64,000 nt of DNA, taken from contig NZ_BOOP01000001.1 of the NCBI RefSeq assembly GCF_016863295.1, positions 434,001 through 498,000 on the forward strand, written 5' to 3'. Below are positions 2,267 to 2,465 of this stretch, in pieces. How positions within the stretch are numbered: position 1 is the first letter of the stretch; every line of letters starts with the position of its first letter. Made by a program: the position numbers and the translations under genes. Source of the stretch: Planotetraspora phitsanulokensis (GTDB taxonomy: Bacteria > Actinomycetota > Actinomycetes > Streptosporangiales > Streptosporangiaceae). The notes below the pieces were generated by a model. It made no database searches. It saw nothing but the letters and a program-made list of their open reading frames with translations, and was not told the DNA's origin.

Positions 2267-2296
2267 TTCAATCTCGCGAAGCGTGGCTGGTAGGGT
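2267..2296 (+). promoter_or_regulatory. Promoter of the aromatic leader peptide / DAHPS-CM gene
   Basis: A -10 hexamer TAGGGT (2291-2296) ends 7 nt before the leader ATG at 2304, so transcription should start at or next to that ATG. The best -35 match is TTCAAT at 2267-2272 with an 18-nt spacer. Surrounding DNA (2200-2290) is noticeably AT-rich for this genome. Confidence 0.5.
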
Positions 2297-2303
2297 CGCA
2301 GGC

Positions 2304-2363
2304 ATGGTCAGGTATCACGTGTTTACGCAGCCGGCTCCGGGAGGGCCGGTCGCGCGTTCGTGA
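2304..2363 (+). CDS. Putative 19-codon leader peptide (Tyr/Phe) of an attenuator
   Basis: Short ORF encoding MVRYHVFTQPAPGGPVARS. Codon 4 is TAT (Tyr, 2313-2315) and codon 7 is TTT (Phe, 2322-2324); both are rare codons in such a GC-rich genome. No Shine-Dalgarno is present, but the ATG falls where transcription is predicted to start, so it would be read from a leaderless RNA. It ends 25 nt before an intrinsic terminator and about 100 nt before a gene for a chorismate-mutase fusion. Position, composition and the following terminator fit a leader peptide that senses charged tRNA-Tyr or tRNA-Phe. Not shown: that it is translated, or that stalling changes termination. Confidence 0.6.
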   Translation: MVRYHVFTQPAPGGPVARS

Positions 2364-2388
2364 ACTAGCGATCACCTGGAGCCGGCTG
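2328..2388 (+). other. Long-range RNA stem between leader ORF and terminator
   Basis: Eleven bases inside the leader ORF (2328-2338, CAGCCGGCTCC) are perfectly complementary to 2378-2388 (GGAGCCGGCTG), immediately before the terminator stem. A competing small hairpin (2331-2335 with 2345-2349) uses the same left arm. The left arm begins just after the Phe codon, so a ribosome stalled on Tyr or Phe would change which stem forms. How this affects the adjacent terminator is unclear, since the two stems abut rather than overlap. Confidence 0.5.
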
Positions 2389-2418
2389 AAGGCAGAGACG
2401 CCATGTCTCTGCCTTTTT
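2389..2418 (+). terminator. Intrinsic terminator in the 5' leader (attenuator)
   Basis: Perfect 11-bp stem AAGGCAGAGAC (2389-2399) with GTCTCTGCCTT (2405-2415), a 5-nt loop, and a T run at 2414-2418. It lies between the leader peptide and the structural gene, downstream of the predicted promoter, so it should terminate transcription before the gene unless relieved. Confidence 0.8.
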
Positions 2419-2465
2419 CGTTGTCGACGAGCCGGCGCGGACGGCCGGCCCACCAAGGAGCGGAC

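Follow-up and report, generated by a model that had tools for sequence, protein, structure and literature searches.

A candidate leaderless aromatic attenuator ahead of a chorismate-mutase fusion gene in Planotetraspora phitsanulokensis and other actinobacteria

What is a 19-codon open reading frame doing between a promoter element and an intrinsic terminator, just ahead of a chorismate-mutase gene in an actinomycete? In E. coli, the pheL-pheA and trpL arrangements place a leader peptide with codons for the end product, and then an intrinsic terminator, before a biosynthesis gene. The question is raised by positions 2267-2465 of a 64,000-nucleotide stretch of the Planotetraspora phitsanulokensis genome (the window), which an earlier sequence-only reading had proposed to hold a leaderless attenuator sensing Tyr and Phe. 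The elements listed in Table 1 resemble the E. coli leaders in having end-product codons in a leader peptide and an intrinsic terminator (PMC11802643, in extract). Unlike them, the leader here lacks a ribosome-binding site, holds few control codons and shows no antiterminator that overlaps the terminator.

Table 1. Elements of the putative leader in the window, the gene behind it and the second leader of the same genome.
Feature	Position	Strand	Basis
-10 hexamer TAGGGT, 7 nt ahead of the ATG at 2304	2291..2296	+	sequence and conservation
Leader-peptide ORF MVRYHVFTQPAPGGPVARS, 19 codons, TGA stop	2304..2363	+	sequence; leaderless placement by conservation
Tyr codon TAT, codon 4, rare; optional in relatives	2313..2315	+	codon counts and comparison
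Anchor Phe codon TTT, codon 7, rare; constant residue, putative sensing codon	2322..2324	+	codon table
Segment A, 5' arm of the long-range stem	2328..2341	+	folding, covariation
Segment B, able to pair locally with A within the ORF	2343..2349	+	26-leader alignment
Segment D, 3' arm of the long-range stem, abutting the terminator	2375..2388	+	folding, covariation
Intrinsic terminator, perfect 11-bp stem (2389-2399 with 2405-2415), U run to 2418	2389..2418	+	
Two GCCGGC repeats, E at 2430-2436 and F at 2442-2449, past the terminator and ahead of the Shine-Dalgarno	2430..2449	+	
Putatively regulated gene, partial DAHP-synthase-like domain plus type II chorismate-mutase domain, 314 residues	2466..3410	+	
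Second leader MRSFSFWYGDGPVRTDRLHVLR	L183 G000:C1:311100-312500; L335 G000:C1:311885-311921	- (L335)	

The -10 hexamer, the short frame with its TAT and TTT codons and the perfect terminator with its T run before the gene start are all where the sequence-only reading had placed them. The two codons are also as rare as it had claimed, TTT accounting for 13/442 Phe codons and TAT for 14/321 Tyr codons in the 34 long gene-like ORFs of the window. The stem said to join the ORF to the terminator exists as well, although folding makes it 14 bp long (2328-2341 with 2375-2388) rather than 11. The core of its segment A begins 8 nt past the first base of the Phe codon. The RNA from 2304 to 2424 folds with a z of -4.25, a stability equalled by 0 of 200 shuffles, and there is one terminator-like site between 1800 and 2800 where 0.1 would be expected. 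One aspect that counts against an attenuator is that the leader holds a single Tyr and a single Phe codon and no run of either. The -10 hexamer would put the transcription start at or beside the leader start codon, judging from its conserved placement. A sigma-70 scan did not find a promoter pair at the leader site because the scan also demands a -35, and the -10 call rests on conservation. Indeed, conservation is a stronger argument against chance than the folding and terminator statistics. As for the gene itself, the fusion protein covers only positions 162-306 of the 338 in the DAHP-synthase profile NF006421, a later portion of the enzyme. Since the first half is missing, its DAHP-synthase-like domain is probably not catalytic.

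How widely is the arrangement conserved? When 60 genomes were searched with the protein of the fusion gene, 51 had matches, many to ordinary DAHP synthases, and 19 loci were taken as orthologues (L001-L019). The leader was found at 17 of these 19 by a TTTA-based expression, the two misses being read by eye. The misses, L015 and L018, are orthologous fusion loci in which no leader was seen, and they count against an attenuator. At L018 the leader seems to have been lost; the fusion start codon of that locus (genome G036) lies apparently close behind the conserved kinase-side intergenic region. With strict filters and a limit of E <= 1e-3, a covariance model built from 18 leaders (R1) matched 44/296 genomes of the class, which is a lower bound. 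In its own genome the model matched this site alone, besides two reverse-strand matches inside the same site (E 0.39 and 0.42). A 31-base leader pattern run over named genomes matched 89 stretches, 80 of which are listed. Among those listed are Actinomadura, Nonomuraea, Microbispora, Microtetraspora, Planotetraspora, Actinoallomurus, Sphaerimonospora, Spongiactinospora and similar genera, together with two metagenome assemblies (an Actinomycetes and a Thermomonosporaceae bacterium). A chorismate-mutase match follows within 900 nt on the same strand at 79 of the 80 listed loci, and the remaining locus has just 195 bases downstream. Related leaders stand ahead of chorismate mutase or DAHP synthase in eight sampled families (f1, f3, f5, f6, f21, f38, f39 and f47). 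In Streptosporangiales-type genomes, the setting in which the sequence-only reading had proposed to look, they precede chorismate-mutase genes; related elements extend far past that order and precede DAHP-synthase genes in other actinobacterial families. Its recurrence across many actinobacteria makes the arrangement very likely to be a switch sensing a shortage of Phe or Tyr.

The leaderless placement of the ORF has been borne out by the relatives. A TANNNT hexamer lies 5-8 nt ahead of an in-frame start in 39/39 leaders, as against 2/305 control windows, and the same pair is present in 79/79 listed named loci that have enough upstream sequence. These sets share some genomes and their counts are not summed. 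When the frame is not imposed, the ATG or GTG behind the -10 is nevertheless in frame with the Phe codon in 39/39 and 79/79, where chance would give one third, and the gap from the -10 to the start codon is 6-8 nt in both sets. TTTA was built into the selection of the named set, whose TTT codons are therefore not independent evidence. At the other end of the ORF, the stop codon lies 39 nt past the start of the Phe codon in 33/55 rows (one row, L119, is mis-anchored) and in 32/79 listed named loci, the others of which have it at 36, 42 or 33 nt. Leaderless peptides of this kind have a precedent in Streptomyces lividans, where short ORFs precede amino-acid genes, several with terminators. However, none of the eight leaderless peptides listed in the extract is for Phe or Tyr, unlike the one here (PMC8079986).

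The RNA structure is conserved along with the start. Covariation was assessed in 26 diverse leaders with an alignment made without structure. The A:D stem and the terminator together have 93.5% standard pairs and a covariation score of 0.240, and two-sided compensatory changes occur in 14/21 of their pairs (34 cells). Together with the 17 of 19 loci above, this is a positive outcome of the orthologue comparison that the sequence-only reading had proposed as a check, and it supports that reading. None of 500 shuffles matched the pairing, the two-sided changes or the covariation score; 26/500 reached the number of further pair types, and slid controls scored lower throughout. Among the first 18 leaders, 10/24 pairs covaried. 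The A:D stem adjoins the terminator in the window and lies, by eye, within 0-4 nt of it in that set of 18. For the local A:B hairpin, 91.6% of cells are paired in the 26 leaders and its covariation was reached by 342/500 shuffles. In other words, A:B covariation beyond shuffles was not found in this set, which is a point against the attenuator. A three-base mini-hairpin between D and the terminator was also considered; it is visible by eye in many leaders, is missing in others and was dropped.

One clue to what is sensed comes from the codons. These were tabulated for 37 chorismate-mutase and 21 DAHP-synthase leaders after close relatives were omitted (e.g., L002-L004, L061, L062, L064, L066-L070, L075, L076, L078, L080, L082-L085 and L088-L090, and further L104-L107, L110, L166 and L173). 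The rows retained are kin by descent and their counts are not independent events. A downstream check gave a chorismate-mutase match for 37/37 of the former and an AroFGH match for 14/21 of the latter; the remaining seven rows are short stretches ahead of genes that the protein search had located. Within the five codons ahead of the anchor Phe, Trp occurs in 0/37 chorismate-mutase leaders versus 18/21 DAHP-synthase leaders, and Tyr in 30/37 versus 21/21. The anchor itself is TTT in 37/37 and 19/21, respectively, with TTC in the other two, and Tyr is encoded by TAT in 26/31 and 26/27 cases. The listed named set has Trp in 0/79 and Tyr in 50/79. Of the two codons originally singled out, Phe is thus constant, whereas Tyr turns out to be optional, being present in 30/37 and 50/79 chorismate-mutase leaders. 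The Trp-less DAHP-synthase leaders (L074, L079 and L102) are all from family f21, and the chorismate-mutase leader at L007 has one Trp, located after the Phe. On this comparison the codon set appears to fit the enzyme's place in the pathway.

The DAHP-synthase leaders themselves are varied. Those of the AroFGH type contain WYAYF, WYWRF, YWRF, RYRYF, YFWF and similar motifs. In family f6 an AroFGH-type gene is present in 170/201 genomes, and a scan of the upstream regions found an aromatic ORF behind a -10 in 42/42 genomes looked at, along with one evident chance ORF (L315). By eye, no leader of this type was seen at L130, L134, L145, L147-L158 and L164; some of these show unrelated aromatic ORFs, and L137 is masked. 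The AroFGH genes that are free of an aromatic leader (L145, L147, L153, L157 and others of L130-L158) come from several f1 genera, and some have a GCGTTAG-G-TTT-like box upstream. A different DAHP synthase, type I-beta, is preceded by MQRNFWRFYGY-like leaders at L021, L022, L024, L025 and L030. P. phitsanulokensis has a second leaderless aromatic leader of its own before such a gene, MRSFSFWYGDGPVRTDRLHVLR, with TTT TGG TAT, a -10 and its own terminator, and an aromatic ORF of this kind was present in 11 of 19 upstream stretches read. With MRSFSFWYGDGPVRTDRLHVLR and MVRYHVFTQPAPGGPVARS in one genome, the entry to the pathway would have a leader with Phe, Trp and Tyr codons, and the branch one with Phe and Tyr codons. 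Directly behind the aromatic codons of MRSFSFWYGDGPVRTDRLHVLR is a sequence that looks complementary to part of this leader's terminator, namely the 5' half of its apical portion.

Could the RNA instead be a metabolite-binding riboswitch or a protein-binding motif, with the short ORF incidental? The stretches TTTA and GCCGG are invariant within the chorismate-mutase leaders, as such a motif might be. What is conserved, however, includes the frame, the start codon and the Phe, Tyr and Trp codons, and several DAHP-synthase leaders lose TTTA (e.g., TTTGCG, TTCGAG) yet keep Phe. Moreover, an Rfam search (riboswitches, T-box and named leaders) gave 0 matches at cut-off in the window and nine related loci. 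The two sub-threshold matches near the site have E values of 0.74 and 1, far under the cut-off and at the level of chance. We regard this explanation as highly improbable.

For phenylalanine and tyrosine operons, a published survey of RNA regulation in actinobacteria reported no conserved upstream structures (PMC1262725, in extract). In eight of the sampled families, by contrast, chorismate-mutase or DAHP-synthase genes are preceded by a conserved structure whose codons fit the metabolic branch. Among the papers listed by searches of open-access text, none has a title or displayed abstract on an aromatic leader ahead of chorismate mutase in actinobacteria. The leaders may also aid the engineering of aromatic precursor supply in antibiotic-producing actinomycetes.

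The closest known relative is probably aroR, the leader of the aroF operon in Corynebacterium glutamicum. aroR encodes a Phe-Tyr-Phe leader, and aroF transcription is reported to rise under Phe limitation, with no effect of Tyr (PMC11802643, PMC4046766 and PMC7356990, in extract). The link comes from three f6 genomes of 2.3-2.7 Mb whose leaders, MRMWRFYF, MRNWRFYF and MSVQRFYF, have the same A:D stem and terminator and stand before an AroFGH DAHP synthase. The genes in those genomes begin with MTPPTSLEN or MSAPTSLAN, similar to the start of aroF as given by a C. glutamicum primer, and the genomes are probably Corynebacterium. The RFYF leaders, shared stems and aroF-like gene starts therefore tie the element to the published attenuator. 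The leader in the window is apparently homologous to aroR, a relationship that passes through the RFYF relatives rather than the C. glutamicum sequence itself. It resembles aroR in placing a peptide with Phe and Tyr codons ahead of an aromatic-pathway gene, and differs in having a chorismate-mutase fusion downstream and no Trp codons (as aroR is described in the extracts). As such, the element would add to the leaderless attenuators of the aroR type a member attached to chorismate mutase and free of Trp codons. A constant Phe with an optional Tyr would predict a response like that of aroR, to Phe and without an effect of Tyr.

From the comparison of sequences, we are fairly confident in reading the element as an aroR-type attenuator that is leaderless, acts on transcription and senses through the ribosome. 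It would link expression of the chorismate-mutase fusion to the supply of charged tRNA-Phe, and Tyr would be a secondary signal. Transcription would start at or beside the leader ATG, and ribosomes would translate the 19-codon ORF with no binding site ahead of it. When TTT occupies the A site of a waiting ribosome, that ribosome should, from its likely geometry, cover the first bases of segment A. This would abolish the A:B pairing and also open the outer half of A:D, the stem flush with the terminator. The altered stem beside the terminator might then let RNA polymerase read through into the fusion gene. Conversely, with ample Phe-tRNA the ribosome would reach the stop codon, the stems would reform and the terminator would work. 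The proposed direction, with read-through rising under Phe shortage, is taken from aroR. The logic is preferred for its likeness to the three-hairpin model for ilvBNC of C. glutamicum: A:B would correspond to the local hairpin there, A:D to the flush one and the terminator to the terminator hairpin. In that model the antiterminator is the hairpin that directly adjoins the terminator (PMC11857589, in extract). According to the same source, the ilvBNC leader peptide starts at the first bases of the transcript and is followed by a local hairpin, a long-range flush hairpin and a terminator; the present leader would share this layout, with A:B as the putative local hairpin. However, ilvBNC senses branched-chain amino acids, and one GCC trinucleotide belongs to both its antiterminator and its terminator, whereas here the stem and terminator are adjacent and no conserved overlap was seen. 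A finding that counts against an attenuator is that changes to leader codons were without effect in the ilvB leader of S. coelicolor (PMC1262725, in extract).

Does a waiting ribosome do what is proposed? Constrained partition functions were calculated for 30 leaders in three states, namely ribosome-free, Phe-stalled and with the ribosome at the stop codon; L011 is absent from this modelling, its terminator search having given none. With TTT in the A site, A:B drops to 0-1.1 expected pairs and A:D keeps 2.6-7.0. The terminator is another matter. Its probability is 0.71-1.00 in all three states, which speaks against a classical antiterminator, and a conserved pairing able to open it was found in none of the modelled ribosome states. 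The sequence-only reading had remarked that such an antiterminator was not visible, and here it was correct. In 32 leaders cut in the terminator loop, mean pairing of the terminator 5' arm with upstream RNA is 0.28 when Phe-stalled, 0.45 when free and 0.50 at the stop. The lower value in the stalled state is thus the opposite of what a simple antiterminator requires.

A terminator that is stable in every modelled state is what one would expect if the locus were a conserved promoter making a constitutively terminated small RNA, its ORF a by-product that senses nothing. Such an RNA has little to say about a start codon that is always in frame with the Phe codon, the retention of rare codons, a codon set that fits the enzyme's position in the pathway, a covarying stem that extends into the ORF or the apparent homology to aroR, and we consider it very unlikely. 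What if the stem acts on the terminator by simply lying next to it? In this hypothetical scenario, one ancestral attenuator joined DAHP synthase or chorismate mutase in different lineages and had its codons retuned (Phe, Tyr and usually Trp at the entry; Phe and Tyr after the branch), and it switches the terminator through the flush stem without an overlapping helix. Taken in its entirety, we consider this less likely than not. If it is true, flush-stem remodelling would be a non-classical geometry for antitermination. The series of leaders is natural material for how attenuators open a terminator without an overlapping antiterminator.

Segment D may have a partner beyond the terminator. In 34 leaders its pairing with the post-terminator region has a mean z of -1.66 versus -0.53 for reversed sequence. 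D:E pairing within each leader averages -19.56 kcal/mol versus -17.98 for permuted partners, with 0/10000 permutations as low; the pairing is suggestive, and the permutation result is inflated because the leaders are kin by descent. This raises the prospect of translational attenuation, in which a stalled ribosome would free D to pair with E, a repeat resembling segment A, and this would block an E:F hairpin just upstream of the Shine-Dalgarno, with the terminator setting only the basal level. It would also suit some f6 leaders that have no separate U-tailed terminator and in which D itself is the 5' arm of a hairpin. However, E lies past the terminator and would be made only after read-through, and the reported effect of aroR is on transcription (PMC11802643, in extract). 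In addition, E:F is no better than controls (mean z -0.62; the region folds at a mean z of -0.67 and is under -1 in 11/34 leaders). This makes translational attenuation an improbable substitute for the transcription attenuator proposed above. The E:F hairpin ahead of the main ribosome-binding site, appealing by eye in several lineages, was rejected on those figures. The f6 leaders without a separate U-tailed terminator are of the MQRxYFWF type (L159, L161, L163, L165, L330 and L331), and their hairpin is GAGCCGG/CCGGCTC. Because D is its 5' arm, A:D and this hairpin are mutually exclusive there. Finally, at L103 the RNA some 10-60 nt past the terminator folds with a z of -6.7 into a hairpin holding the putative ribosome-binding site, before the DAHP-synthase start.
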